Shown here: positions 13,406 through 32,872 of the stretch, piece after piece
Layout: each line of letters opens with the position of its first letter
Numbering within the stretch: the first letter of the stretch is position 1
From: a virus
Direction: 5' to 3' (one strand)
Virus record (IMG/VR): IMGVR_UViG_3300028829_006001
Span: 1-38,872 of that record
Length of the DNA stretch: 38,872 nt
The notes under the pieces: model-generated
What the model saw: only the letters and a program-made list of their open reading frames with translations
The model's database searches: none
What the model was told of the DNA's origin: nothing
Program-made: the position numbers and the translations under genes

Positions 13406-13446
13406 GCCGGTGTGGCGAAATTGGCAGACGCACAAGACTTAAAATC
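13406..13446 (+). other. tRNA-Leu(UAA) 5'-half fragment, attP core
   Basis: The 41 nt carry the acceptor 5' strand GCCGGTG, a full D-arm (ATTGGCAGACGC) and the anticodon stem-loop with CTTAAAA (anticodon TAA). They read like a bacterial tRNA-Leu up to AAAATC, after which the 3' anticodon strand, variable arm and T-arm are absent. It is therefore not a functional tRNA but a core identical to part of a host gene. Translating it gives the familiar false peptide VAKLADAQDLKS. Confidence 0.85.
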
Positions 13447-13464
13447 ATTCACAAATCCTAGAAA

Positions 13465-13494
13465 ACCCCTGTATTTGCAGGGGTATTTTTATTT
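13465..13494 (+). terminator. Rho-independent terminator just after the attP core
   Basis: A 7-bp stem ACCCCTG/CAGGGGT with a 6-nt loop is followed by ATTTTTATTT. It begins 18 nt after the tRNA fragment. In a lysogen it would stop transcripts coming from the host tRNA promoter into the phage. Confidence 0.8.
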
Positions 13495-13557
13495 CTGCAC
13501 AGTTTTTCGATCCCTTCTGCACAGGGTTGCACAAAAAAACTTACAAAAAAGTTTGAC

Positions 13558-13570
13558 GGTGTATGTCACC
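13558..13570 (+). promoter_or_regulatory. Repeated motif site 1 (GGTGTATGTCACC)
   Basis: GGTG-N5-CACC palindrome directly overlapping a -35-like TTGACG (13553-13558), about 76 bp upstream of the gene at 13646. The same 13-mer recurs at 20181-20193. Confidence 0.6.
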
Positions 13571-13591
13571 TGTGCGAATGTATATCCAACA

Positions 13592-13606
13592 GGGAGACAT
13601 ACACCC
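13592..13606 (-). promoter_or_regulatory. Repeated motif site 2 (inverted)
   Basis: Read on the minus strand this is GGGTGTATGTCTCCC, a near-palindromic variant of the motif, 21 bp after site 1 and 39 bp upstream of the gene at 13646. The paired arrangement suggests cooperative binding. Confidence 0.55.
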
Positions 13607-13645
13607 TATCAAACGTAAAACAAACCATAGAGCAAAGAAAATACA

Positions 13646-13891
13646 ATGTACGGCAAAAGACGAATAGTAGTAGCGAGAGACGGTAGAACTAGCCTTCAAG
13701 GTTCAGAGGGTAGAGGCGGATCATATCACCCTATGGGAAACATTTGTAAGACCAGTCAGGGTTGGGATGTGACCGGATTACAAGACGAGGGTGTCTACGG
13801 TCAAATTTACATCGGAACATATATCACAAGGGATCAGGCCAAAAATGCTTTATTCCAGCACTATAAATTAACCACACGATACATCGCTTAA
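13646..13891 (+). CDS. Hypothetical protein, first gene right of attP
   Basis: The protein has 81 residues and is basic at the N-terminus (MYGKRRIVVARDGR), then Gly-rich with several aromatic residues; no membrane segment. The leader (AAACCATAGAGCAA, A-rich to the ATG) resembles the leader before the gene at 16018, and two copies of the repeated motif lie just upstream. It is therefore probably an early or lysogenically regulated gene. Family not recognised. Confidence 0.6.
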   Translation: MYGKRRIVVARDGRTSLQGSEGRGGSYHPMGNICKTSQGWDVTGLQDEGVYGQIYIGTYITRDQAKNALFQHYKLTTRYIA

Positions 13892-13906
13892 ACGAAAGCA
13901 TAAATT

Positions 13907-14230
13907 ATGAACAAAGTATCTTTAAAAAACGCAACTGAAATAAGCGATCAAGGTGGTGCGGTCCCTTCGGGAGATTGGGTGAACGGAAGTGGTAATTATG
14001 TTACCGCAAGACCAACTCCACCCTTCTGCGTAAAGGTAAGGGTTATCGGGCCTTTAGAATTTGTAATCGATAACGGCAAGTATGGATGGGAAGATCCAAA
14101 GCTAAAAGCTTATGCTGTTAATGCTGCAAAGAGACTTTTAAAGAAACGCCCCAGGGTTACCAAAATAATTTTGCTTAACGATAAGCGAGGGTTGAACAAG
14201 GCACTTAGGGATAAGGGGATTTCAGTATGA
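13907..14230 (+). CDS. Hypothetical protein
   Basis: The protein has 107 residues. A Gly/Ser/Pro-rich N-terminus precedes a compact domain (VKVRVIGPLEFVIDNGKYGW, then helices rich in Lys/Arg and a final KIILLNDKRGLNKAL). It overlaps the endolysin start by 4 nt, so it is co-translated with it. No signal peptide or recognised motif. Possibly a lysis- or integration-associated accessory gene by position only. Confidence 0.55.
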   Translation: MNKVSLKNATEISDQGGAVPSGDWVNGSGNYVTARPTPPFCVKVRVIGPLEFVIDNGKYGWEDPKLKAYAVNAAKRLLKKRPRVTKIILLNDKRGLNKALRDKGISV

Positions 14231-14655
14231 TATTTTCAAAAAAAAATCTATGGGTGTATTGCATCCTACTAATTTCCACCGTAGCACAGGGCAAGGACTA
14301 CACAGTTGCACTCACGATCCTTGCAGAGGCAAGAGGTGAAGGTGAATCAGGGATGGGACATGTTATGGCAGTAATTGTGCAGAGATCTTTAGAACGCAAC
14401 CTCTCGATGAAAGATGTCTGCTTAGAGAGAAAGCAGTTCTCATGTTGGAATGGCAAAACCTACAAGCAATTGCTTCCATTGCTGAAAAGCCCACAAGCAA
14501 GGTTTGCGATTTACTTACAAGACAACGCACACCTCGTTGACCTCACCAGAGCACAATACGCAAATCATTATCATGCCAATTACGTCCAGCCTTATTGGTC
14601 TAAAAACGCAAAACCTCTCTACACAATCGGGAATCATATCTTTTATCGACTATGA
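14227..14655 (+). CDS. SleB/CwlJ-type cell-wall hydrolase (endolysin) with signal sequence
   Basis: The protein has 142 residues. A hydrophobic N-terminus (residues ~8-20, followed by VAQGKDY) looks like a cleavable signal or signal-anchor. The domain then shows LAEARGEGESGMGHVMAVI with the conserved glutamate (AEARGEG), DVCLERKQFSCWNG, and a C-terminal HYHANYVQPYW-type segment, all typical of the Hydrolase_2 (SleB) family that cleaves peptidoglycan. It overlaps the preceding gene by 4 nt and the integrase start by 4 nt. A copy of the phage's repeated motif lies inside codons 9-14. It is probably the lytic enzyme; holin and spanins lie 19 kb away. Confidence 0.85.
   Translation: MIFSKKNLWVYCILLISTVAQGKDYTVALTILAEARGEGESGMGHVMAVIVQRSLERNLSMKDVCLERKQFSCWNGKTYKQLLPLLKSPQARFAIYLQDNAHLVDLTRAQYANHYHANYVQPYWSKNAKPLYTIGNHIFYRL
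14252..14266 (+). promoter_or_regulatory. Repeated motif site 3 inside the endolysin gene
   Basis: GGGTGTATTGCATCC lies 25 bp after the endolysin start codon and is identical over 15 bp to the two tandem sites at 16594 and 16612. Because it also encodes WVYCI of the signal sequence, it is either an intragenic operator or a DNA-level coincidence with coding; three identical 15-mers argue for function. Confidence 0.5.
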
Positions 14656-15938
14656 AAATACGCAACATAACCAATAACAAATATGAGATCCGCAAAGGAT
14701 CTTTGGCAGCAACTGTGTTGCTTACCGCAAGAAACGGGAACTGGTACTTCAGGTCTCAGGGATCTGACAAAAAGATTGCAGCGAAGACCAGCAGCAAGGA
14801 TGAGGCACTTGCGATCGCAGCAAACAGGATCTTTGACAAGCAACCTGGTTATTTTGCGAAAAGCGAAAAGGGTGCAACGATGGGCGATATTGTCAAACGA
14901 TACTGGAGAGCTTATGAGATGGGCGAAATCGAAAACGGAAAAGGCAGGCCAATTTGTGAGCAGCATGCAAAGGCAGTTGTTCGTGAAGCTTACAGGGTTT
15001 GCAACACTAAAAACCTCGATCGGTTTTACTTCAAGGATTTGTCTGAAAAACAGGATGGAGTTTACAAAATTATTTCGATCCTGAAATCTAGGCACTTTGT
15101 TTCTAAGGGTAAAGTTTTGCGAGAAGGACAGGAGTATGTCAGTGCAGCAAAAAGGTATAATGCACAACTTAAACAGTTCAGAGGACTATTTAAAAAGGGA
15201 CTTTGCGACAGTATCTACAGTGACCTCGACCTTGATGCAGTCACACTTGCAATCATCAATAATCTTCCAACAAAAAAGCTTGAAAAGAAACCTGTCAAGA
15301 CATCACCAGAATCAGTTATGCAAAAAATGGACTTGCACTTTAGAGATGTGAACAATTTCACAGAGATCCGAATCAACAGAGTTGGATACAACATTTACGC
15401 GAGGTATTGGTTAGCCCGATGCTGTGGATTGAGGAAAAGTGAAATCATCAATGCAAGGCACGAATGGATAAGTGAAGGTCCAATCGGATGGACAATCGAA
15501 GTTCAAGATACCGCAAATTACAAGGAAGGAATTGTGTCCCTAAGTGGATGGAGCAGCAAGAGCACCAGATCTAGAAAAATTCCAATACCTAGTTGGTTAG
15601 TCATGAAAATAAAACAGAACAAACTTACAGAACGGGAAGATGAGCCGATTTGCCATCATGCAGGTAGTTGTAAACTGCATCGATCCTTTGATGAATCTTA
15701 TTCAAGGGAGTTCAGGAAAGCATATGAAAACTGTGGTGGTGATAATGACTCATTGCGATTACCTACACACAACCTGCGAAAAGAATACATCACCGAAATC
15801 GGGAAAGCTTCTGACCTCTCAACAGCATCTGAGTATGCAGGACACAGCAGTATGCTGACAACTGAAGCGCACTATTTTGATAAATCCAAACATCAAAAAA
15901 GAGTAGTAATCGATCCCCTAGGACAGTCTTTGTCCTAG
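14652..15938 (+). CDS. int: Tyrosine recombinase / integrase
   Basis: The protein has 428 residues. The C-terminal catalytic domain has the full set: R261 in CGLRKSE, a likely lysine in the SSKSTRSRKIPIP hairpin (K303), H373-x-x-R376 in THNLRKEY, H398 in AGHSS and the nucleophile Y408 in EAHYFDK. The N-terminal part (1-60) is a likely arm-binding domain and ~85-230 the core-binding helical domain. It starts 1.2 kb from the tRNA-Leu attP core and is expected to integrate the phage into that tRNA gene, making the phage temperate. A hairpin covers the stop codon. Confidence 0.93.
   Translation: MKIRNITNNKYEIRKGSLAATVLLTARNGNWYFRSQGSDKKIAAKTSSKDEALAIAANRIFDKQPGYFAKSEKGATMGDIVKRYWRAYEMGEIENGKGRPICEQHAKAVVREAYRVCNTKNLDRFYFKDLSEKQDGVYKIISILKSRHFVSKGKVLREGQEYVSAAKRYNAQLKQFRGLFKKGLCDSIYSDLDLDAVTLAIINNLPTKKLEKKPVKTSPESVMQKMDLHFRDVNNFTEIRINRVGYNIYARYWLARCCGLRKSEIINARHEWISEGPIGWTIEVQDTANYKEGIVSLSGWSSKSTRSRKIPIPSWLVMKIKQNKLTEREDEPICHHAGSCKLHRSFDESYSREFRKAYENCGGDNDSLRLPTHNLRKEYITEIGKASDLSTASEYAGHSSMLTTEAHYFDKSKHQKRVVIDPLGQSLS
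15918..15938. repeat. Hairpin at the integrase stop codon
   Basis: CTAGGACA / TGTCCTAG, a perfect 8-bp stem with a 5-nt loop, ends on the TAG stop. No U-tract follows, so intrinsic termination is doubtful. It may stabilise the mRNA end or control integrase expression from downstream, as sib-type elements do; this is inference. Confidence 0.5.
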
Positions 15939-15956
15939 CGAATGTGATAGAAAACA

Positions 15957-15984
15957 TTGACAACTCAGAGGGTGTATTGTCACA
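15957..15984 (+). promoter_or_regulatory. TTGACA box plus repeated motif site 4
   Basis: A consensus -35-like TTGACA (15957-15962) is followed 7 bp later by GGGTGTATTGTCAC (from 15970), a member of the repeated motif. A good -10 is not obvious. The unit lies 34-60 bp upstream of the RHH-like gene at 16018, so it is likely to control that gene. Confidence 0.5.
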
Positions 15985-16017
15985 TGTGGGCGCAAATAAA
16001 CCATAGACAATAATAAA

Positions 16018-16233
16018 ATGCCGTCAAAAAGAGATCCGAATAAAAAAATTGTAACATTGTGGCTCGAAAAAGGGAATGCCTCCGAACTTAAAAAACTAGC
16101 AGATGAGCGAGGTGTTCCGGTATCGGACTTGATACAGGAAGCTATTAAAAACCAATGCGAATTATGGGGTATCGACTATAACGATTATGTCGAGTCCAAA
16201 TATTCTAACCGTAACGATAAAAAGGAAATATAA
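16018..16233 (+). CDS. Ribbon-helix-helix-like DNA-binding protein
   Basis: The protein has 71 residues. A basic start leads into a short strand (KKIVTLWLEK), helix A (ASELKKLADERG) and helix B (VSDLIQEAIKNQC), the order and spacing of CopG/Arc-type RHH repressors, which bind DNA as dimers through the strand. An acidic/basic tail follows. It lies directly after the integrase and after a TTGACA/repeated-motif unit, so a regulatory, possibly autoregulated, role is likely. It is one of two RHH-like candidates for the lysogeny regulator. Confidence 0.65.
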   Translation: MPSKRDPNKKIVTLWLEKGNASELKKLADERGVPVSDLIQEAIKNQCELWGIDYNDYVESKYSNRNDKKEI

Positions 16234-16237
16234 AAAA

Positions 16238-16546
16238 ATGATTATGGACAGGGTGGTCGAACAAGGGAGGGAAGAACTCAAAGACGTTCGCGATTTGAGT
16301 CAGCAAAGAGCAAACAGGTCAGTCAAGTCAATTGACCTGAGAACAATTAACATTGAGCGATACCTGATCGCAATTATAAGTTTAGTTGTGATCAGTCTCA
16401 CAATTCAGGTTTACGATTTGAAAACTTCGATGAAAGCAAATCTTGAAGCGCAAACTGCTTTTGCGGAAAAAAACGTTCAGAGAAACTGGCAATCGTTGTC
16501 AGTCTTAAGAGACATACTTTCCGAACTTAAAGAATCCAATATTTAA
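16238..16546 (+). CDS. Single-pass membrane protein of unknown function
   Basis: The protein has 102 residues from the ATG at 16238, chosen because AAAGGAA lies 12 nt upstream and the previous gene ends at 16233; the frame is open further upstream. A charged N-terminal ~45 residues precede one clear membrane helix (YLIAIISLVVISLTIQVY) and a helical, possibly coiled-coil C-terminus. It is followed by a strong terminator. In this lysogeny-module position, membrane proteins often act in superinfection exclusion, but lysis or other roles are equally possible. Confidence 0.6.
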   Translation: MIMDRVVEQGREELKDVRDLSQQRANRSVKSIDLRTINIERYLIAIISLVVISLTIQVYDLKTSMKANLEAQTAFAEKNVQRNWQSLSVLRDILSELKESNI

Positions 16547-16551
16547 AACAA

Positions 16552-16587
16552 AGGCATGATCCCCTGAAGGACATGCCTGTTTTTTTA
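16552..16587 (+). terminator. Rho-independent terminator
   Basis: A 7-bp stem AGGCATG/CATGCCT with a 13-nt loop is followed by G and a run of eight T. It closes the 16018-16546 unit and insulates the following tandem motif sites. Confidence 0.85.
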
Positions 16588-16593
16588 AAACCA

Positions 16594-16608
16594 GGGTGTA
16601 TTGCATCC
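16594..16608 (+). promoter_or_regulatory. Repeated motif site 5 (first of a tandem pair)
   Basis: GGGTGTATTGCATCC, 7 bp after the terminator T-run. It is one unit of an 18-bp direct repeat and is identical to sites 3 and 6. Confidence 0.7.
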
Positions 16609-16611
16609 AAA

Positions 16612-16626
16612 GGGTGTATTGCATCC
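16612..16626 (+). promoter_or_regulatory. Repeated motif site 6 (second of a tandem pair)
   Basis: The second copy of GGGTGTATTGCATCC starts 18 bp after site 5 and ends 9 bp before the ATG at 16636. Tandem sites abutting a start codon are typical of an autoregulatory operator. Confidence 0.7.
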
Positions 16627-16635
16627 ACAACAGCT

Positions 16636-16827
16636 ATGAAAAAAGAACATTATACAGCAGTCAGAATGACTGCACCACAGAGGCGAGATCTCGAAAGAGT
16701 TTCCGGTCGAATCCTGCACTCACTATCTGAGACAAGCAGACTACTTCTCACCTATGCAATTGATCAGGTGAAAGACGATCCCTACATGCTTCTCGACTAT
16801 GCCTCCAAAAATAAACAGCAGGAATAA
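16636..16827 (+). CDS. Small RHH-like regulator behind tandem motif sites
   Basis: The protein has 63 residues from the ATG at 16636; the frame extends upstream to 16573, but that part is terminator and operator DNA. The sequence has a possible RHH strand (HYTAVRMT), a helix (PQRRDLERVSGRIL) and a second helix (LSETSRLLLTYAIDQV). It overlaps the nuclease gene start by 29 nt. Being directly downstream of two perfect copies of the phage-wide motif, it is the most attractive candidate for the protein that reads the motif. The fold assignment is tentative. Confidence 0.6.
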   Translation: MKKEHYTAVRMTAPQRRDLERVSGRILHSLSETSRLLLTYAIDQVKDDPYMLLDYASKNKQQE

Positions 16828-17185
16828 AGGCAAGCGAGGGGAATTGGAATGGAGCAAGGTTCTGATCGCTGAAGGTTTTCACGCCTTCAGAGGGGCGCAA
16901 CACTCAGGGAAGAATCACTTCACTGGTGAATCTGCGCCAGACGTTATCTGTCCAGATTTGCTTATTCATTACGAAGTTAAGCGAGTTGAAAAACTCAACC
17001 TCCAGGATGCGCTTTCACAATCGCAACGAGACTCAAACGAAAAGGAAATTGCAGCAGTTGCGCACCGTAAAAACAATTGCAGTTGGATGGTGACAACTAG
17101 TGCAGAGGACCACTTTCGACTAGTTCGTGAATCGAGCTTTGTCGTGTCAAAAAAAGAAGAAAACGAAAACAAAAAGAAAGAATAA
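16799..17185 (+). CDS. PD-(D/E)XK nuclease, Holliday-junction-resolvase-like
   Basis: The protein has 128 residues. The order KGKRGELEWSKVL (conserved Glu in the first helix), GESAPDVICPDL (Asp of the PD motif) and IHYEVKRVEKL (E-x-K) is the archaeal-Hjc/phage resolvase pattern. It is followed by a Q-rich helix and a strand before a Lys/Glu-rich tail. Such enzymes cut branched DNA during recombination or before packaging. It lies at the head of the recombination cluster and overlaps the RHH-like gene by 29 nt. Confidence 0.75.
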   Translation: MPPKINSRNKGKRGELEWSKVLIAEGFHAFRGAQHSGKNHFTGESAPDVICPDLLIHYEVKRVEKLNLQDALSQSQRDSNEKEIAAVAHRKNNCSWMVTTSAEDHFRLVRESSFVVSKKEENENKKKE

Positions 17186-17189
17186 AAAT

Positions 17190-17663
17190 ATGGTAATGAT
17201 CCCAACAACAGACAGACATGATCTCCCTAAAGAGGGATGGCACAACGCAAAAATAGTTGATGTATACGAATACTCACAATGGGAAGACGGTAATGGTAAG
17301 CAAATTAAAGATGCTGATATTGACGGTTATTCTGGACCTAAAAGTTACAGGAAAAAATTAAAGATAGTATTTGAGGTCGATGAACTAGGTGAGAGTGGGT
17401 TGAAAATTCAGGTTAAATCTAAACCGTTCAACCACACATTAAAACCAGGTTCAACGCTGAGACCATTCATTGACATGATCGACGATAAAATTTTGCAAAA
17501 AAATGAAAATTTTACTGAACACCTTATTTTGGGGAAGTTGGTGAAAATTAAAATCGATCACTACAAGGCAACGACCGGCATCGTTTACCCAAACATTAAA
17601 CAGATTGTCGAAGCCGAACCAAAGGTCACTGAAGACGATATTCCAGCATTTGACAGAGGTTGA
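17190..17663 (+). CDS. Putative ssDNA-binding / OB-fold recombination accessory protein
   Basis: The protein has 157 residues from the ATG at 17190, which follows the previous stop by 4 nt; the open frame extends into the upstream gene and is not used. It is beta-rich: KLKIVFEVDE, a TLKPGSTLRPFIDM segment, GKLVKIKIDHYKA and IKQIVEAEP, with an acidic tail (TEDDIPAFDRG) like those of phage single-strand-binding proteins. It is followed directly by a RecB-like exonuclease, a common pairing. No family is named with certainty. Confidence 0.55.
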   Translation: MVMIPTTDRHDLPKEGWHNAKIVDVYEYSQWEDGNGKQIKDADIDGYSGPKSYRKKLKIVFEVDELGESGLKIQVKSKPFNHTLKPGSTLRPFIDMIDDKILQKNENFTEHLILGKLVKIKIDHYKATTGIVYPNIKQIVEAEPKVTEDDIPAFDRG

Positions 17664-17665
17664 TT

Positions 17666-18472
17666 ATGGCTACTATACCACAAACCAATAGCAATTCATC
17701 CGGTGACGGTGATCATTATTACACTGCTCAAGGTGATCCTGCATACGGTGCAGGAATTCGATTAGCCAGACAGCAGCACTTGCTTCCATCTCCTTCGACA
17801 ATCCTGAAGGTGATGAGCAAGCCAGGACTGTCCATTTGGATTCAGAATCAATTGATCGAAACTGCGCTTGATACGATTGATGAAATCAGGAGTCAATACA
17901 CCGATCGCAAAGATCAAATTAAGGCGATTGCTGATGCCAACAAGGAGAAAGGCAGAGGTCCAATGGATCTGGGTACGCTTATTCATAGCAAAGCAGAAAA
18001 AATCCTTGAGGGTGAAAATGCTGAAGCAGGTGATGTGTATGGTGTTGGAATATCTGACTACGTTACGCAGCACATTGTAAGGACTCGATGGTGTGAACGA
18101 TCGGTCACGCACATCGGTGAGCGGATCGCATTTGCAGGTCGAGTCGATGCACTTGTGGAGCATCAATCATGCGGATTGTCTGTGCTAGACTGGAAGTCTT
18201 CCAAAGTCAAAAGAGGCAAAACAGGCAACCCCAATCCCGTATGGTATGATGCATATATCGTCCAGCTATCTGCATACTCATATGCTATTGACGGTCAACC
18301 TCAACCCATATCTGTCGCAATAGATACTAGGCCCGAACATGAAGGTGGAATCTATGAAAAAATATGGGACAAAGAGGAAATTGAGAGAGGTTGGAAAATT
18401 TTCAATCTCCTTTACCGCTTATGGTGTGAGGACAGGAAGTATTGGCCACACCAGCATTATCTGAACCGTTAA
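17666..18472 (+). CDS. RecB/Cas4-family PD-(D/E)XK exonuclease
   Basis: The protein has 268 residues from the ATG at 17666, 2 nt after the preceding stop. Catalytic motifs are in the right order: LGTLIH with H107, GRVDAL with D161, LDWKSSK with D175 and K177, and QLSAYSYA with Q200-Y204. These define RecB-type nucleases, which in phages act as recombination exonucleases with a single-strand annealing or binding partner. The upstream OB-fold-like protein may be that partner. A terminator follows. Confidence 0.85.
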   Translation: MATIPQTNSNSSGDGDHYYTAQGDPAYGAGIRLARQQHLLPSPSTILKVMSKPGLSIWIQNQLIETALDTIDEIRSQYTDRKDQIKAIADANKEKGRGPMDLGTLIHSKAEKILEGENAEAGDVYGVGISDYVTQHIVRTRWCERSVTHIGERIAFAGRVDALVEHQSCGLSVLDWKSSKVKRGKTGNPNPVWYDAYIVQLSAYSYAIDGQPQPISVAIDTRPEHEGGIYEKIWDKEEIERGWKIFNLLYRLWCEDRKYWPHQHYLNR

Positions 18473-18480
18473 CCACCAAT

Positions 18481-18512
18481 CCACAGGTTCAGCGATGAGC
18501 CTGTGGGCTTTT
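18481..18512 (+). terminator. Rho-independent terminator with GCGA tetraloop
   Basis: An 11-bp stem (CCACAGGTTCA / TGAGCCTGTGG, with one T-G wobble) is closed by a GNRA loop GCGA and followed by GCTTTT. It lies 8 nt after the exonuclease stop. The T-run is short, so it may be partial. Confidence 0.7.
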
Positions 18513-18516
18513 ACTT

Positions 18517-18942
18517 ATGCTCTACGAATCACATCAAGATTTAAAAAATCAGCGACAAGCTCAACAAGTGGTTGAGGAAATGTTTGGTTGGGACATAGAG
18601 GAACTCAACATCAGATATCACGCTGATTGGATTGCGTTCGTTAACAAAAAACCGCATGCGCTGATTGAGTATAAGCGAAGGCATTGTGAGCATGACCGAT
18701 ACGATACAGTTTTCTTAGATGTGCAGAAATACGTTGAATGCAAAAAATACGCAGATGCCCTGGATATCCCCTTTTACTACCTGCAAGAATGGAATGATAA
18801 ATACGGGATCACTCAGCCAAAAATGACAGACGCAATTCGCAGCAAAATTTCCATTGCAGGATCATCAAAACGCGATGATGTGAATGACTACTACCTGATG
18901 ATGCATCTGCCACTGAAACGCTTCACCTTAAAGAGCAAATGA
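18517..18942 (+). CDS. PD-(D/E)XK-like nuclease
   Basis: The protein has 141 residues. The segment YHADWIAFVNKKPHALIEYKRR supplies the D...E-x-K triad, followed by a helix and strand (DVQKYVECKKYADALDIPFYYL) as in small phage resolvase/VRR-NUC-like enzymes. It is the third restriction-fold nuclease within 2.2 kb. It starts 5 nt after a terminator and overlaps the next start by 4 nt. The substrate is unknown; branched or nicked DNA is likely. Confidence 0.7.
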   Translation: MLYESHQDLKNQRQAQQVVEEMFGWDIEELNIRYHADWIAFVNKKPHALIEYKRRHCEHDRYDTVFLDVQKYVECKKYADALDIPFYYLQEWNDKYGITQPKMTDAIRSKISIAGSSKRDDVNDYYLMMHLPLKRFTLKSK

Positions 18943-19223
18943 GACCTCGTATTTGGATGAAGGGGATCACACAGGAGATCCTAGAAGAGCGGATTGAGGA
19001 GATTAAAGATCCAGAGATACGTCAACAGGTAGCGTGTCTGGTTTGGTATGACTTTATGGGCGAGCGATTGGTTGCAGACATCTCAGCCAGAGAGAGAGGC
19101 TATTTTGAACCCTACCTGAATGCATCTCCTGTTTATTTAAAGGAAGAACAAATAATACCAGGCTTGCGCTGGGTAGGTTACCCGAAGGAAACCGCAAGAC
19201 TCAGGGCAAGGAGGCTGGAGTGA
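18939..19223 (+). CDS. Hypothetical helical protein
   Basis: The protein has 94 residues, overlapping neighbours by 4 nt on both sides. It has a charged helical N-terminus (LEERIEEIKDPEIRQQVACLVWYDF) and a basic Arg-rich end (KETARLRARRLE). It lies immediately before the replication initiator and could be a replication accessory protein; no motif supports more. Its 3' end contains AAGGAGG, which serves as the ribosome-binding site of the next gene. Confidence 0.55.
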   Translation: MRPRIWMKGITQEILEERIEEIKDPEIRQQVACLVWYDFMGERLVADISARERGYFEPYLNASPVYLKEEQIIPGLRWVGYPKETARLRARRLE

Positions 19224-20134
19224 AGACCAATATTTTTGACCTGATCGGAATATACTGGCAATGCCAGAAGCATTTCGGACTGAGTAATGGAGCAGCATCT
19301 CTCTATTTTTATTTGCTCTACAAAATGAACGATGCCAGATGGCCTGACACTTTAGGGATCTCATCTCTGGAAATCGGTGGTGTGTTGGGAATATCTAAAC
19401 CAACGCTTTTGAAATTCAAGGATGAACTGTCATCTACAGGTCTCATTGAGTGCCAGTTTGTGACTGGAAAGATTCGACAGAACTACTCACTTAGGAACCC
19501 GAAATTGATGTTCGATGGGGTCAGTTTTGATCGAGATAGTAAAGTAGTTAGTAAAGAACATAGTAAAGTAGATAGTAAACAACATAGTAAAGATTCTTGT
19601 CTAACATATATATATAAGACAAAGACCAAAGACAAAGACATCCCTATAGTCCCTTCAGGGACCAGAGAGAGACAATCTCATGCGAATGTTGAAAGGGTTT
19701 ATCAGGCATACCCTCGCAAGGTAGCAAAACCAACAGCACTGAAAGCCATTCAAAAACAGATCACCAAATACGGATTCGATGATGTGTTGTCCAAAACGGA
19801 ACTATTCGCCAAAGCAACTCAAGGCGAGGATCTGAAGTTCATCCCCCATCCAGCGACATTCTACAATCAGGAACGCTTCAATGATGATCCCGATACCTGG
19901 AGCAACTGCAATAGCAACTCAGGAACTTCATCCAAAGGAGTATCAGACGCACAAAAACTGATGATCATGCAGGACCAGCAGAAGACACTGAAGGCAGAGA
20001 TGCAGACGTATCGCAACAGGCACCTCTCACAATGCGCTATGACCAGCGTATGGGATCAGGGATCGAAACCGAAATATGATGAGATGGCAGGAATGATGAA
20101 AAAGCTGAAGGAAAAGATCAATGAACTGCTATGA
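19220..20134 (+). CDS. O-like replication initiator with winged-helix N-terminus and internal iterons
   Basis: The protein has 304 residues and a GTG start with a good AAGGAGG 6 nt upstream, unusual for this phage. Residues ~15-85 form a winged-helix DNA-binding domain (ISSLEIGGVLGISKPTLLKF). A low-complexity hinge follows (SKVVSKEHSKVDSKQHSKDS, ~110-130), encoded by five 12-bp DNA repeats. The C-terminal part (AYPRKVAKPTALKAI, helical) resembles DnaD/O-type proteins. Like lambda O, it probably binds repeats within its own gene to open the origin and recruit host helicase. Confidence 0.75.
   Translation: MKTNIFDLIGIYWQCQKHFGLSNGAASLYFYLLYKMNDARWPDTLGISSLEIGGVLGISKPTLLKFKDELSSTGLIECQFVTGKIRQNYSLRNPKLMFDGVSFDRDSKVVSKEHSKVDSKQHSKDSCLTYIYKTKTKDKDIPIVPSGTRERQSHANVERVYQAYPRKVAKPTALKAIQKQITKYGFDDVLSKTELFAKATQGEDLKFIPHPATFYNQERFNDDPDTWSNCNSNSGTSSKGVSDAQKLMIMQDQQKTLKAEMQTYRNRHLSQCAMTSVWDQGSKPKYDEMAGMMKKLKEKINELL
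19537..19592. repeat. Replication-origin iterons (5 x TAGTAAAG, 12-bp period)
   Basis: TAGTAAAG begins at 19537, 19549, 19561, 19573 (TAGTAAAC) and 19585, exactly 12 bp apart. An A/T-rich stretch (ACATATATATATAAG, 19603-19617) and AAAGAC repeats follow. Iterons in the middle of an initiator gene beside an A/T-rich region match the lambda ori layout. Confidence 0.75.
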
Positions 20135-20373
20135 TACCGAAAGCCATAGTTCGATCCCTAAAGGGTGCTTCTACGTTCAGGGTGTATGTCACCCTCTACG
20201 GTATGGAAAACCCAGCAGGAGCGAGATTAGGGCGCTTAAAACCCCTGCCAGATGACAACTACACCTTTGATAATGAAAAAAACGCACAAGAAGCAGCAAT
20301 CAGACTCCAGAGATACCTCGACGAACACCACCAACCTCGACCTAGAAAGCGAAGGGGAAAACGAAGGAGATGA
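20131..20373 (+). CDS. Small basic hypothetical protein
   Basis: The protein has 80 residues, overlapping the initiator stop by 4 nt. It has a short beta-rich start and a strongly basic tail (RPRKRRGKRRR) suggesting nucleic-acid binding. A perfect copy of the repeated motif (20180-20194) lies inside codons ~17-22. Its 3' half overlaps the next gene by ~120 nt in another frame, so either this gene or the next start may be shorter in reality. Confidence 0.45.
   Translation: MIPKAIVRSLKGASTFRVYVTLYGMENPAGARLGRLKPLPDDNYTFDNEKNAQEAAIRLQRYLDEHHQPRPRKRRGKRRR
20180..20194 (+). promoter_or_regulatory. Repeated motif site 7 (GGGTGTATGTCACCC)
   Basis: A perfect GGGTG-N5-CACCC palindrome, identical over 13 bp to site 1. 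It lies within coding DNA about 70 bp before the possible start of the next gene. Confidence 0.5.
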
Positions 20374-21022
20374 TGTCGGATCTAAAAAGAATCTTTTAGA
20401 AAAGACAGAAGAGTATGAGTTCAAATCACCGCTTAAAGGGCCAGGATCGAGCCTGAGTGATCGAGCCTACAATCAGGTATGCAGAGACCTCATTGACGGG
20501 TTCAGTCTTACAATCACTGCTACACGCAATCAGATAGCAAGACAGAGTGTTGCCAGTATCAAGGCATCCATTGCCGATCGTGTGCCTCATTGGAAGCAAT
20601 CAACGAGCAGGAAGATGGGAGATCTCATCACTCAGTTCATGCATTCATTAGAGGATGACCTGAATAAGGGGAAGCTGAGTCCAGATAGGAAATCCATTAC
20701 CATTGGTATCCTCTCAGACAAGAAGAGGGATCTCGACGGTGACAACAACATCACCATCACACACAAGAAGGCTAACAGTGACAACGACTTCCATCAGAAG
20801 ATGGATGCCTACCTGAACTCGCTGAAAAACGTCACAGGATCTACGCAACAGACTGATGGTCTTGTGCAGAGCGACCATAAGCCACTGATAATCAACGATG
20901 CCCCTGAGAATTGCACAGAAATTACACAGATAGGGGTGGAGGGGGATCAGGAAGTTTCCGAATCCAAACATAGCGAAACGGATTCCCGCTCACAGAAAAA
21001 TTCCACCAAAAGGACCGAATGA
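20252..21022 (+). CDS. Hypothetical DNA-binding-like protein
   Basis: The protein is up to 256 residues; the ATG at 20273 is an alternative start. A charged, Ser/Glu-rich N-terminal ~70 residues leads into a helical domain (LSDRAYNQVCRDLIDGFSLT, then ITATRNQIARQSVASIKASIADR, which could be a helix-turn-helix, then KMGDLITQFMHSLEDDL). A disordered polar C-terminus follows. It overlaps the methyltransferase start by 4 nt. An HTH with a long tail between initiator and methyltransferase suggests a replication or regulatory role; small terminase is a further possibility. Unproven. Confidence 0.55.
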   Translation: MTTTPLIMKKTHKKQQSDSRDTSTNTTNLDLESEGENEGDDVGSKKNLLEKTEEYEFKSPLKGPGSSLSDRAYNQVCRDLIDGFSLTITATRNQIARQSVASIKASIADRVPHWKQSTSRKMGDLITQFMHSLEDDLNKGKLSPDRKSITIGILSDKKRDLDGDNNITITHKKANSDNDFHQKMDAYLNSLKNVTGSTQQTDGLVQSDHKPLIINDAPENCTEITQIGVEGDQEVSESKHSETDSRSQKNSTKRTE

Positions 21023-21732
21023 GGCACCTAGATCTATTCTCCGGGATAGGTGGTTTCGCACTGGCAGCACGATGGATGGGATGGCACACCGTTGCATTCT
21101 GCGAGATCGATCCTTATTGCCAGCAGGTTTTGCAGAAGAACTTCCCCCATACACCATTTTATGATGACATCAGAACTATTCCCCCAATCGGAAACATCGA
21201 CATCCTTACAGGAGGTTTCCCCTGCCAACCCTTCAGTGTCGCTGGGATCAAAAAAGGCAAGGAGGATGACAGGCACCTCTGGCCGGAAATGTTACGGGTT
21301 ATTGCATGCGAAAAACCCACTTTTGTGGTTGGCGAAAACGTTGCTGGCATCATCGGAATGGCACTCGACGAGGTGTTATCTGAGCTGGAAGGTCAAGGCT
21401 ACTCCACACAATCGTTTGTTATTCCAGCTTGCAGTGTCGATGCCCCCCACAAGCGAGACAGGGTCTGGATTATTGCCCACACCCAGAGCAAGCGAATACA
21501 AGGATTGCGGGCCAGTGGGCAGCAAGTCGCACACTCACATGCTGGGCAGGGACTACCTGTGCGCGAAAGCGAAAGATCCAGAGAAACCAACTGGAAAGCT
21601 GAACCCTCAGTGGATCGAGTGGTTGATGGGGTATCCAACAGGGTGGACCGAATTAAGGGACTAGGCAATGCGATCGTTCCGCAGGTCGCTTTTCAAATTT
21701 ACCAGGCAATAAATAAATTCAACAACCAATGA
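21019..21732 (+). CDS. DNA (cytosine-5) methyltransferase, compact phage form
   Basis: The protein has 237 residues. Motif I DLFSGIGG (5-12), the catalytic PCQ with C69 in GGFPCQPFS, GENV (105-108) and HKRDRVW (144-150) are all present, as is the C-terminal GLGNAIVPQV motif. These are the AdoMet-binding and catalytic motifs of C5 methylases. Only ~55 residues separate motifs VIII and X, so the target-recognition domain is very small. It may protect phage DNA from host restriction. The gene overlaps both neighbours by 4 nt. A second frame over the same DNA also reads like a methylase-associated protein (see 21050-21664). Confidence 0.9.
   Translation: MRHLDLFSGIGGFALAARWMGWHTVAFCEIDPYCQQVLQKNFPHTPFYDDIRTIPPIGNIDILTGGFPCQPFSVAGIKKGKEDDRHLWPEMLRVIACEKPTFVVGENVAGIIGMALDEVLSELEGQGYSTQSFVIPACSVDAPHKRDRVWIIAHTQSKRIQGLRASGQQVAHSHAGQGLPVRESERSRETNWKAEPSVDRVVDGVSNRVDRIKGLGNAIVPQVAFQIYQAINKFNNQ
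21050..21664 (+). CDS. Overprinted +1-frame ORF inside the C5 methyltransferase gene
   Basis: An open frame of 204 codons lies wholly within the methyltransferase gene. From residue ~103 it reads EWHSTRCYLSWKVKATP, LLFQLAVSMP, GSGLLPTPRAS and finally LNPQWIEWLMGYPTGWTEL. To my recollection these phrases recur in phage and bacterial methylase-associated proteins, including the WVEWLMGFP-type ending. The same DNA thus gives two family-like proteins. Whether it is translated, and from which start, is unknown; it may instead supply a C-terminal part by frameshifting. Confidence 0.35.
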   Translation: MVSHWQHDGWDGTPLHSARSILIASRFCRRTSPIHHFMMTSELFPQSETSTSLQEVSPANPSVSLGSKKARRMTGTSGRKCYGLLHAKNPLLWLAKTLLASSEWHSTRCYLSWKVKATPHNRLLFQLAVSMPPTSETGSGLLPTPRASEYKDCGPVGSKSHTHMLGRDYLCAKAKDPEKPTGKLNPQWIEWLMGYPTGWTELRD

Positions 21733-22736
21733 AAACCTACGTGCAACGAATTAAGGAGATTTGTGCGGATGAATACGGCATCACAGTTAAGGACATTGAC
21801 GCACACTCAAGGCATCGAACTCACACGCTTGCCAGATGGACTGCAATGGAGTTGGTCAACCGATACACCCCATTGGGACATACCGAAATCGCAAGGCTTT
21901 TTAACAGATACTCTGGTTCCCTCACATACCCGATACAGGAAATGACAGAACCAATAGTAATGATCGAACTCTGGACACCTGAAATGGCAAAAAATGCACT
22001 TAAGGGTAACACCATCAACCGGAAACTCAGCAAACGTGATGTTGATCGATATATCAAGGACATGAAGCAGGGAAGATGGACCCTGAACGGTGAGAGTGTG
22101 AAGCTTGATCACACAGGCAGACTGCTTGATGGACAGCATAGAATGCATGCCTTGATTGGAAGTGGAACGAGTCAGAAAATTGTTACAGTGAGAAACCTGC
22201 CATCAGAGGATTCCACATTTGCGACCATTGATTGTGGTAGGAAACGCACCAGCGGATCTGTATTGCAGTTGAGCAAGGTCAAAAACTCAAACGCAGTAGC
22301 AGCAGCAATTGCCTTTTACAGGTTCCTTTTGACAGGTGAGGACAAGCTAACTTCGCAAGAAGTTGTTGAAGTTTATAAAAACCATTCGGAATTATTCGAT
22401 GAAGGTGTGAGGTTGGGTGGTGCTGTGAAAAACCTTGTCAGAACTCCGGTGTATGCGTCTTTTATGGCAGAAGCGATGTCTAAGGACAGTGGGAAAGCGA
22501 TACAGTTTCACGAGCAGTTTGCAACAGGTGTAGGGCTTGATCCCGATAGCGCGATCCTAGCACTGAGAAACTACTTCATCAACCAGACTTACCGAAAGGC
22601 AGCAAGCAACCCTGCACTGCGTCTGGCGCAATATAATGCATGCCGTTTGGCGTTTCAGTGTTGGAAGGATGGTAAGAAACGAAAACTGATCCAGAACAAT
22701 TATAACAGACCGAAAGTTGCGGAATTTGGAAAGTAA
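21729..22736 (+). CDS. DnaA domain IV - ParB-like fusion protein
   Basis: The protein has 335 residues. Residues 1-75 look like DnaA domain IV: VQRIKEICADEYGITVKDI, SRHRTHTLARWTAMELVNRY and TPLGHTEIARLFN, the basic-loop/HTH that binds DnaA boxes. From ~80 on, a ParB/sulfiredoxin-like domain appears: NRKLSKRDVDRYIKDMKQGRW, LDHTGRLLDGQHRMHALI, with the conserved GQHR. A helical C-terminal part follows. The fusion may tether a nuclease or NTP-binding module to origin-like sites, or titrate host DnaA. It overlaps the methyltransferase by 4 nt. Each half is well supported; the joint function is inference. Confidence 0.75.
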   Translation: MKTYVQRIKEICADEYGITVKDIDAHSRHRTHTLARWTAMELVNRYTPLGHTEIARLFNRYSGSLTYPIQEMTEPIVMIELWTPEMAKNALKGNTINRKLSKRDVDRYIKDMKQGRWTLNGESVKLDHTGRLLDGQHRMHALIGSGTSQKIVTVRNLPSEDSTFATIDCGRKRTSGSVLQLSKVKNSNAVAAAIAFYRFLLTGEDKLTSQEVVEVYKNHSELFDEGVRLGGAVKNLVRTPVYASFMAEAMSKDSGKAIQFHEQFATGVGLDPDSAILALRNYFINQTYRKAASNPALRLAQYNACRLAFQCWKDGKKRKLIQNNYNRPKVAEFGK

Positions 22737-22749
22737 AACTCATGATTTT

Positions 22750-22935
22750 ATGACAAAACATGACGCTGAAACAATCGATGCAATGGTTCGTTATGGGGGC
22801 CGGTTCGCATCATCGATCGGATCTGCTGCAAAAGCAGGAACCAGGGAGCAGTTTTTAATTCTGAAGCAATCGTTCCCTGATCTGTGGAAGACATATTCCA
22901 AAGTGGCAAAGATAATTAACAAACTTGAAAGCTAA
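22750..22935 (+). CDS. Small hypothetical protein
   Basis: The protein has 61 residues from the ATG at 22750; the frame also opens at TTG 22717. Two helices (AETIDAMVRYGGRFASSIGSA and REQFLILKQSFPDLWKTY) are separated by a short loop; no membrane segment. It overlaps the zinc-ribbon gene start by 11 nt. Similar small proteins are common in phage early regions; no role assigned. Confidence 0.55.
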   Translation: MTKHDAETIDAMVRYGGRFASSIGSAAKAGTREQFLILKQSFPDLWKTYSKVAKIINKLES

Positions 22936-23137
22936 AGTTTGCCCAGATTGCGGTGAATTAAAGCCACTCACCGAATACTACACAGAGATAAGAACCAGAT
23001 GGAATGATGGATATTGCCTCTATTGCAAAAACTGCAAACGGAACCGAACAAATGCATATCGTGCTGCTAAGAGGGAAGAATACAATGCTGGCAACAGACG
23101 ATCCTATCACATGCGAAAGCGAAGGATGCAATCATGA
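22925..23137 (+). CDS. Zinc-ribbon / HNH-like small protein
   Basis: The protein has 70 residues with a TTG start. CPDCGELKPLTEYY near the start and CLYCKNC in the middle give four metal-binding cysteines, followed by a basic RNRTNAYRAAKREEY helix. This is the phage zinc-ribbon pattern often joined to HNH endonucleases, but the HNH catalytic histidines are missing here. It is probably a DNA- or RNA-binding protein. It overlaps the next gene by 4 nt. Confidence 0.65.
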   Translation: MKAKVCPDCGELKPLTEYYTEIRTRWNDGYCLYCKNCKRNRTNAYRAAKREEYNAGNRRSYHMRKRRMQS

Positions 23138-23307
23138 GTAAATGCCCAACACCATTGAGTTGTGAGATCAAAAAGGACTGCTTGTTCAATTGCGATCAAC
23201 CAACGAAAAAGGATCTGCTCATTAAAGCAGTGAGGGACATTCTTTGCTACATTCCGAACGGTGACCGCAAGGAAACGCTGATGAAGGCGATTGATGACTG
23301 TAGGTAA
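23134..23307 (+). CDS. Cysteine-rich small protein
   Basis: The protein has 57 residues, with six cysteines (4, 10, 16, 20, 38 and 56), four of them in the N-terminal third, suggesting metal binding. A helix follows (TKKDLLIKAVRDIL). It overlaps the zinc-ribbon gene by 4 nt, so the two probably work as a pair of small zinc proteins. No family recognised. It is followed by a 9-bp hairpin. Confidence 0.5.
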   Translation: MSKCPTPLSCEIKKDCLFNCDQPTKKDLLIKAVRDILCYIPNGDRKETLMKAIDDCR

Positions 23308-23312
23308 CAAAA

Positions 23313-23340
23313 ACCCCTCCCCGAGGGATCAGGGAGGGGT
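23313..23340 (+). terminator. Strong hairpin, possible terminator
   Basis: ACCCCTCCC/GGGAGGGGT is a perfect 9-bp stem with a 10-nt loop, 6 nt after the Cys-rich gene. Only a broken T-rich tail (GTTGCTCTTATG) follows, so termination may be weak or factor-dependent. Confidence 0.55.
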
Positions 23341-23397
23341 GTTGCTCTTATGACTATGAATAACGACAAACCAATAGCTAAATGTCCTACGTCAAAA

Positions 23398-23410
23398 GGT
23401 GTAATCCACC
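23398..23410 (+). promoter_or_regulatory. Repeated motif site 8 (variant)
   Basis: GGTGTAATCCACC keeps the GGTG-N5-CACC arms but differs in the spacer. It lies 49 bp before site 9 in the leader of the dNMP kinase gene. A 23-codon ORF (23350-23421) also covers it; I see no support for that ORF. Confidence 0.45.
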
Positions 23411-23435
23411 CATCCAGATAATGCAACAACAAAAA

Positions 23436-23464
23436 TTGACGAAATAGGTGTATTGCACCATTAT
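23436..23464 (+). promoter_or_regulatory. Promoter-like element with repeated motif site 9
   Basis: TTGACG (23436-23441), a 17-bp spacer and CATTAT (23459-23464) resemble a sigma-70 promoter. GGTGTATTGCACC (23447-23459) fills the spacer, so a protein bound there would block polymerase. The -10 overlaps the ATG at 23463, so an mRNA from it would be leaderless or use a later start. Confidence 0.5.
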
Positions 23465-23993
23465 GAGTGAAATTAATTTATTAATTGGCCTGAGTGGCAA
23501 GATGGGATCAGGCAAGGACTCTGTTTACGACATCGCATGTAATCACATTGATGTTCCCGTTTGGCGATTGGCCTTTGGTGATGCAGTCAGACGGGAGGTT
23601 GCTAAAGCTACCAATGTGGGTTTGCGATATCTGAAGGCAAACAAAGAATTGTTTCGACCGATACTCCAATGGTGGGGAACTGAGTTCAGGCGCAATCTGA
23701 CATGCCAGGATTATTGGGTGAAAAAGGTCAGGGCAAAACTGGAGCATGATCGACGCGATGGAATCACGTTTGTCACTGATGTGCGGTTTCCGAACGAGGC
23801 AGAAATGATACGGGATCTGGGAGGCATTGTAGTCAGGGTGGTTCGACCGGATCTGGAACAGAGAAATGGATCGGATCATTGCAGTGAATCTGAACTCGAC
23901 CATTACGATTTCGATGCGGTTATTGAAAACGATGGAGCTCTTGAAACGTTAATACCGAAAATCAAGGATCTGATAAATGATCGACGAGTCTGA
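23463..23993 (+). CDS. Deoxynucleoside monophosphate kinase
   Basis: The protein has 176 residues from the ATG at 23463; the frame also opens at GTG 23448, within motif site 9. The P-loop GLSGKMGSGKDS is near the N-terminus. RPILQWWGTEFRR and TDVRFPNEAEMIRDLGG follow in the order seen in T4 gp1-type dNMP kinases and their phage relatives. It would phosphorylate dNMPs to dNDPs for phage DNA synthesis. It overlaps the next gene by 17 nt. Confidence 0.85.
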   Translation: MSEINLLIGLSGKMGSGKDSVYDIACNHIDVPVWRLAFGDAVRREVAKATNVGLRYLKANKELFRPILQWWGTEFRRNLTCQDYWVKKVRAKLEHDRRDGITFVTDVRFPNEAEMIRDLGGIVVRVVRPDLEQRNGSDHCSESELDHYDFDAVIENDGALETLIPKIKDLINDRRV

Positions 23994-32024: not shown

Positions 32025-32872
32025 GAACTGTATCTGCTTCAAAAGTTCTGCAAGGTGCAGTTGAGTTAACTGGACGCTTGTTCACCAAACTCAGCAACGA
32101 TGAACTTCCTTTATTCATTGGAAGTCTTAACCGCAATCTCAGGGATATCTGGGAAAAAGAGTTTTGGCCCTCAGTGATGGCAATTGAGAAAAGATACTTT
32201 CGCTCAATTTGGACTGCTGGCACATACACTTTGAATGCAGAGGTCTATCACACAGGAACAGAAAAGATTTACCGAAACACTGCAAACACAACAACGGGAG
32301 TTCCTGGATCAAGTTCCGATTGGGTTGAGCAGGAAACATACATCCCTTACATTTCGTTTACGCAGACAAACGAGACGGAAATTGGTCAGGTCTATAGAGT
32401 GACCAATAAAGATCCTCGCCAAAATCTGAACTTTGATACCGAAGAATTTTCACAGAAAGATGATCAAATTGTTGTCTGCTATCCCAGAGAGAAATCCTAC
32501 TGGATTGAGTTTCGCAAAAGAGCACCGTTGATTAAGGCAGAGAAATATTCATCAAGTGTGAATTACGTTAAAGGCGATCAGGTGTATTACACATCCGCTG
32601 GGCAGCAGGGATCAGATTTCTGGGAAGCAACAGATGCAAACGTAAATAGCGCACCATCCACAACAAACATTGCCTGGAGCAAGATAAACATACCTTACAT
32701 TTTCGGCCCCTATCTTGAACACGCTATTGCAGCAGATATCCTTTTAACCGATGAGAAAATCGAGCTTGCAGGAATCCAGATGCGTGATCGTGATCGCATG
32801 CTCGAAAGCGAAATACGCAAAGTGAAAAACCAAAGCGGAGACGCTTTCAAACCAATTTTCAAAACATACTGA
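32021..32872 (+). CDS. Head-tail adaptor-like protein with two carbohydrate-binding-like modules
   Basis: The protein has 283 residues. A helical N-terminal ~60 residues and helical C-terminal ~55 residues (YLEHAIAADILLTDEKIELA) match podovirus head-tail adaptors by shape and position. Two similar inserts at ~65-103 and ~175-222 each read Y..(G)..V/IYR or VYY...aromatic...G.P/APS...W, resembling chitin-binding-type CBM modules. These would face outward from the neck and could bind glycans. The adaptor call rests mainly on synteny. Confidence 0.65.
   Translation: MRTVSASKVLQGAVELTGRLFTKLSNDELPLFIGSLNRNLRDIWEKEFWPSVMAIEKRYFRSIWTAGTYTLNAEVYHTGTEKIYRNTANTTTGVPGSSSDWVEQETYIPYISFTQTNETEIGQVYRVTNKDPRQNLNFDTEEFSQKDDQIVVCYPREKSYWIEFRKRAPLIKAEKYSSSVNYVKGDQVYYTSAGQQGSDFWEATDANVNSAPSTTNIAWSKINIPYIFGPYLEHAIAADILLTDEKIELAGIQMRDRDRMLESEIRKVKNQSGDAFKPIFKTY

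Follow-up and report, generated by a model that had tools for sequence, protein, structure and literature searches.

A dyad repeated across the early region of a phage genome is the probable operator of a phage-encoded ribbon-helix-helix protein

We analysed a complete IMG/VR virus record of 38,872 bp (hereafter the window) and found that a dyad recurring in its early region is probably the operator of a phage-encoded ribbon-helix-helix (RHH) repressor, RHH1, which would regulate its own gene and a phage-wide regulon. The case is built on the sites, their positions, their conservation and their link with RHH genes, all of which were read from the DNA. Structural genes lie at both flanks of the window, and the middle segment encodes an endolysin, a tyrosine integrase, a RusA-like resolvase, an exonuclease, a replication initiator, a DNA methyltransferase and a deoxynucleoside monophosphate (dNMP) kinase (Table 1). 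In agreement with the first-pass annotation, we detected no CI-like repressor, i.e., no XRE/HTH protein with a dimerisation domain, among the early-region proteins scanned.

Table 1. Genes, candidate operators and promoter-like elements in the window.
Feature	Position	Strand	Evidence
-35-like TTGAC box, touches the 13558 operator	13553..13557	+	
Candidate operator, early promoter, rightward (GGTGTATGTCACC)	13558..13570	+	21.4 bits; kept in G001, G005
Candidate operator, early promoter, leftward (GGTGTATGTCTCC)	13593..13605	-	19.5 bits
-35-like TTGATA box, possible divergent promoter	13607..13612	-	G005 has TTGGGA, box not kept
Cell-wall hydrolase / endolysin	14227..14655	+	Pfam Hydrolase_2 E 1.6e-12; phrog_938
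Candidate operator inside endolysin gene, codons 9-13 (GGTGTATTGCATC)	14253..14265	+	20.2 bits
Tyrosine integrase	14652..15938	+	phrog_1 E 1.3e-17; Pfam Phage_integrase
-35-like TTGACA box, RHH1 promoter	15957..15962	+	
Candidate operator variant, 6-bp spacer, RHH1 promoter (GGTGTATTGTCACA)	15971..15984	+	TTGACA 8 bp upstream
RHH1, Arc-like RHH protein, proposed binder	16018..16233	+	phrog_3180 Arc-like repressor E 4.6e-7
Terminator-like hairpin and T run between RHH1 and RHH2 units	16552..16586	+	sequence
Candidate operator 1 upstream of RHH2 (GGTGTATTGCATC)	16595..16607	+	20.2 bits
Candidate operator 2 upstream of RHH2, 18-bp period	16613..16625	+	20.2 bits
RHH2, second RHH-like small protein, heads replication/recombination run	16636..16827	+	sequence pattern
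Operator-like site inside small gene 20131-20373 (GGTGTATGTCACC)	20181..20193	+	21.4 bits
Candidate distal operator upstream of dNMP kinase (GGTGTAATCCACC)	23398..23410	+	18.5 bits
-35-like TTGACG box, kinase promoter	23436..23441	+	
Candidate operator in dNMP-kinase promoter spacer (GGTGTATTGCACC)	23447..23459	+	22.7 bits
dNMP kinase	23463..23993	+	phrog_139 E 3.8e-43

Searches of 50,697 phage records for named phages returned only four matches for the portal, all distant, and none for the integrase or RHH1; the terminase had no match in 84,980 genomes. Relatives among uncultivated phages are numerous, the close ones being G001, G004 and G005 (terminase 97-98% identical to that of the window phage, W). 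The G010 group and G014 are further away (83-85%; G014 differs from the window by about 30% of the DNA in aligned parts), and a wider group has about 50% identity. The scan for RHH1 gave one contig, L106, in a Flavobacteriales MAG. At 13408-13450 of the window a tRNA-Leu-like 5' half (GCCGGTGTGGCGAAATTGGCAGACGCACAAGACTTAAAATC), followed by a terminator-like hairpin, stands directly before the early operator pair, and is kept in G001, G005, G010 and L106. This element looks like an attP core, and ARAGORN found no complete tRNA in it. Beyond attP, L106 runs on into phage structural genes and thus lacks a host flank, and a search for the tRNA-Leu core in 295 genomes of the MAG's class matched the MAG itself only.

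The first-pass annotation had listed nine sites of a palindromic 15-mer, and all are present at their positions. We also recovered its three identical 15-mers (14252, 16594, 16612), the 13-mer common to 13558 and 20181, the tandem pair with an 18-bp period before the ATG at 16636, and the TTGAC boxes adjoining 13558, 15971 and 23447. The 15-mer consensus describes most sites, but not the one at 15970/15971 (GGGTGTATTGTCACA), which has more than three mismatches and is a variant with a 6-bp spacer: it is one base longer than the others and scores 8.3 bits in the 5-bp-spacer matrix. The sites at 23398 and 23447 are there, but they are more symmetric than this consensus. Overall, four of the nine sites have TTGA[CT] within 16 nt upstream, against 4% of random 16-nt windows.

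The 15-mer with up to three mismatches matched the window 11 times, against 4.1 ± 2.0 in shuffled sequences (1 of 100 shuffles reached 11), a weak test because the pattern was derived from the same sequence. We therefore also give the counts for a scoring matrix built from the sites of the relative G005 only. Exactly eight GGTGTATNNCAYC-type sites of the window scored at least 18 bits (18.5-22.7), all at listed positions, where 0.026 were expected by chance, and the next-best match had 13.9 bits; since G005 is a homologous phage, this result informs on the strength and location of the sites, not on their independence. All eight strong sites lie within 13.5–23.5 kb, as expected from the proposed confinement to the early half. 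Weaker look-alikes are found in structural genes, at 1185 on the minus strand (13.9 bits) and at 32581 (13.4 bits). The latter (32581-32593, GGTGTATTACACA) is kept down to G010 and G014 (GGTCTATTACACC), probably by coding constraint, as it encodes a conserved QVYYT.

A blind test ranked all pairings of a 4-base arm and its reverse complement, spaced by 0-10 bases (2,816 combinations). GGTG-N5-CACC was the most over-represented combination in G014 (6 seen, 0.25 expected) and the second in G005, and GGTG-N6-CACC came first in G010, where it was not significant after correction. GGTG with a 5-bp spacing did not rank first in the window alone, because the right arm (CAYCC) is degenerate. Blind support for the motif comes from G014 and G005.

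Sites were found at corresponding places in the W/G001/G004/G005, G014 and G010/L106 lineages. In relatives with about 30% DNA divergence the core between the GGTG and CACC arms is altered, and one lineage has a 6-bp instead of a 5-bp spacer. The checks that had been named beforehand thus turned out in favour of the motif, its strong sites being early only, rare in shuffles and kept in position in relatives. Early-promoter sites follow the attP-like sequence in W, G001 and G005, and as N6 forms in G010 and L106; the 13593 site, the inverted partner of 13558 at 35 bp, is kept in G001 and G005. In the early promoter of L106 (3260-3340) three operator-like sites surround TTGACA-17-TACCTT, an arrangement that recalls switch regions with three operators. 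In the window, transcription leftward from the inverted 13593 site and its TTGATA box would run for some 100-150 nt, to the neighbourhood of a hairpin at 13465-13484. This stretch has no evident gene, and the transcript is a possible small regulatory RNA. An Rfam scan of 13.2-16.7 kb gave only a meaningless miRNA match, produced by the inverted operator pair.

Further downstream, two sites precede RHH2 in every lineage read, and the element before them recurs in G010 (hairpin and T run) and G014 (T run). The arms of the 20181 site are kept in G014 (GGTGGCCTCCACC) and weakened in G001/G004/G005 (GGTGTATGTTACC) and in G010/L106; coding constraint may explain part of this conservation. The kinase gene generally has two upstream sites, and one in G014. 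The 23398 site is identical in G004, G005 and G014 and takes an N6 form in G010 and L106, and the 23447 site lies between TTGACG and CATTAT at a promoter-like spacing of 17 bp. The -10 elements at site-bearing promoters are mostly poor.

The site at the start of the endolysin gene bears on the idea that the repeats arise from chance and coding constraint. This idea draws on the location of 14253 and 20181 within coding sequence, and on the look-alike at 32581 in a structural gene. Yet the endolysin site is kept in G001 and G005 (GGTGTATTTCACC) and in G010 and L106 (GGTGTGTATCCACC), even though in G010 its right arm is one base out of register with the reading frame and the encoded amino acids vary (WVYCILL, MVYFTLL, MVCIHLL). 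As the dyad stays while phase and amino acids change, the target of selection at this site appears to be the nucleic acid. The G005-matrix counts, the blind ranking of arms and spacers, and the reciprocal scan described below also contradict this idea, whose probability we regard as negligible.

Two candidate binders had been named, the products of 16018-16233 and 16636-16827, and the comparison favours the former, RHH1. RHH1 matches PHROG families of Arc-like repressors. The protein of W stays below the gathering scores of Pfam RHH_1 and RHH_3; its homologue in L121 passes that of RHH_1 (21.4 vs 20.5 bits) and L124/L125-type homologues pass NikA-like. The best solved-structure matches of the RHH1 profile are SvtR (PDB 2kel) and ORF56 (PDB 2k9i), both weak (E 0.031). 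AlphaFold monomers of RHH1 and RHH2 (pLDDT 67 and 72) have helices for RHH1 and lack the N-terminal strand in both. This would be expected of a strand formed only in the dimer, and the RHH fold is a prediction from sequence. A site precedes the RHH1 gene, as in an autoregulated RHH operon, in W, G001, G005, G010, L106 and the unrelated phages described below; we found no clear operator before RHH1 in G014.

RHH2, being RHH-like too, is a second candidate and could bind these sites. It is unlikely, though, that RHH2 is the main binder of these operators and RHH1 only a paralogue, in competition or cooperation with it or simply alike in pattern. The constant presence of two sites before RHH2 would fit such a role, the strongest tandem pair being its own promoter, and the strand region of RHH2 also varies among lineages. 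Orthologues of RHH2 occur in G005, G010, G014 and L106, and it has no match in the PHROG or Pfam databases. However, profile comparison showed no relation of RHH2 to the RHH1 family (E 0.18), and the protein common to unrelated operator-bearing phages is RHH1, not RHH2. Between the two genes, 16238-16543 encodes a small protein with a probable membrane helix, found at the same place in G005, G010, G014 and L106. Such a fixed place next to RHH1 would suggest that it is a partner of RHH1 or a signal input.

Homologues of RHH1 were found in viral contigs that have no further gene in common with the window phage or, in some cases, only a methyltransferase; one such contig encodes a RecT-like annealing protein, a head protease and a tail protein of a different kind. 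In all of these unrelated phages TTGACG-GGTGGTTATACACC-TG stands 13-15 nt before the RHH1 start codon, with TTGGCG replacing TTGACG in a few contigs of one subgroup, and a second GGTGGTTATACACC copy lies about 300 bp beyond the first. These phages also have another small RHH-like gene (10131-10334 in L078, with equivalents in the others), which begins within the end of RHH1. The second operator copy lies inside this gene, close to its 3' end, and an HTH_17-like gene follows directly.

To put the question the other way round, we scanned 2.9 million viral contigs with the DNA pattern alone (TTGACGGGTGNNNNNNCACCTG, i.e., TTGACG-GGTG-N6-CACC-TG), and 36 stretches matched. Directly downstream there was an RHH1 homologue (E <= 3e-17) in 14 of the 36, including the newly found L121 and L126, another small RHH-like protein (MANxHKHRQRVIRG...DRSAITR) in 15, and neither type in seven; the contigs are related within each set, so these are few lineages and not 29 independent events. 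The contigs of the second set (L108, L110-L115, L119, L120, L122, L127, L133-L135, L142) are GC-rich (0.68-0.72) and have TTGACGGGTGGCAAGCCACCTG before the small RHH-like gene. They carry an inverted operator pair 36-38 bp apart, like 13558/13593 (35 bp), and would represent a distinct pair of RHH protein and operator arranged in the same geometry. The pairing of this kind of protein with this site occurs in at least two otherwise unrelated virus groups.

As a negative control, 18 terminase relatives (about 50% identity) gave no convincing RHH1, the single weak match (E 0.001) being part of a frame of 738 codons. Nor are sites in excess there, with 7 found and 17 for a reversed control pattern. 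Eight RHH1-bearing records have 33 sites, against 5 for the reversed pattern. If a host regulator bound the sites, the phage would be borrowing a host regulon, and such a factor could select these very positions. We consider this extremely improbable, given that unrelated virus groups pair the sites with RHH genes of the phage itself and that terminase relatives without RHH1 are also without sites.

The motif might instead work in RNA, as a hairpin (GGGUG-loop-CAYCC) close to start codons that controls translation, since most sites point in the direction of the genes, several are near start codons, and pairing of CAYCC with GGGUG is preserved through a G-U pair. This is very unlikely. In related and unrelated phages the asymmetric core is found in either orientation, both before and behind RHH genes (GGTGGTTATACACC / GGTGTATAACCACC), the G014 palindrome is symmetric (GGTGGACTCCACC), and the four sites just 3' of TTGA(C/T) boxes would be outside the promoter's own transcript. 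We rejected the hairpin because of this orientation and promoter position.

With RHH1 as the reader, its dimers would contact two inverted GGTG half-sites from the major groove, which are 5 bp apart (13-bp operator) in the window phage and 6 bp apart (14-bp operator) in phages of other lineages. In the promoters of the early segment, RHH1 and the kinase, the operator would lie just 3' of the TTGAC -35 box, in the spacer between -35 and -10, so that bound RHH1 would exclude RNA polymerase. Repression of this kind is the simplest interpretation of such a geometry; like binding itself, it is inferred. Paired sites (13558/13593, 16595/16613, 23398/23447) may be bound cooperatively, which is common among RHH proteins (PMC5569661). 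RHH1 would limit its own synthesis and keep in check the early/integration segment, the recombination/replication segment headed by RHH2, and also the dNMP kinase. The coding sites 14253 and 20181 would need some mechanism besides spacer occlusion. The role of RHH1 could be lysogeny maintenance, a Cro-like shut-off of early genes or a more general repression of them.

Spacer length may follow the protein. RHH1 starts with MP[SG][KQ]RDPNK in 5-bp-spacer phages (W group, G014) and mostly with MPSKRA[KS] in 6-bp-spacer phages (G010, L106 and the L078 group), with the exception that the RHH1 promoter of the W group itself has the 6-bp form. The trend is suggestive; it involves few lineages and could reflect shared ancestry.

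Arc and Mnt of phage P22 are, like RHH1, phage-encoded RHH repressors, and the PHROG families matched by RHH1 bear the name of Arc. They act at a single immI/ant locus, not at sites across 10 kb, and have another operator sequence. A functional precedent is F55 of SSV1, a small virus-encoded RHH protein with sites in several early promoters and in its own, like those proposed for RHH1. A CI-like role in lysogeny maintenance has been described for F55 (PMC5569661), but it belongs to an archaeal virus and its sites are tandem ATAGATAG repeats, not an inverted GGTG/CACC dyad. SvtR of SIRV1 is a repressor of its own promoter and also binds at three further sites of the SIRV1 genome (PMC5569661). 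SvtR and ORF56 differ in coming from archaeal elements, and the SvtR consensus (ATnnTTCAAnAnnnnnAAAATG) is unlike the window motif. CopG of pMV158, a small RHH repressor of the RHH_1 family, autoregulates its replication operon, binding its own promoter cooperatively in competition with RNA polymerase (PMC5703833). CopG differs in controlling plasmid copy number from one operator, and RHH1 of W does not reach the gathering score of RHH_1.

More tentatively, a GGTG/CACC-reading RHH protein might be the master lysogeny switch of this phage group, with operators in promoters and coding genes. The cassette of TTGAC, dyad and RHH start might then be a mobile control unit that has spread among unrelated groups of viruses, its spacing (5 or 6 bp) changing with the N-terminal arm of the protein (RDPNKK vs RAKNKK). 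We hold this broader scheme to be possible rather than probable.

Many environmental temperate phages have an integrase and no recognisable CI repressor. Here an operator has been defined, its probable reader named, and the pairing recovered in reverse from DNA alone, which makes the control of such a phage testable. The operator offers a route to RHH regulators, proteins too short for profile searches, and the 5-bp and 6-bp spacings provide a natural series for the study of repressor–site co-change.
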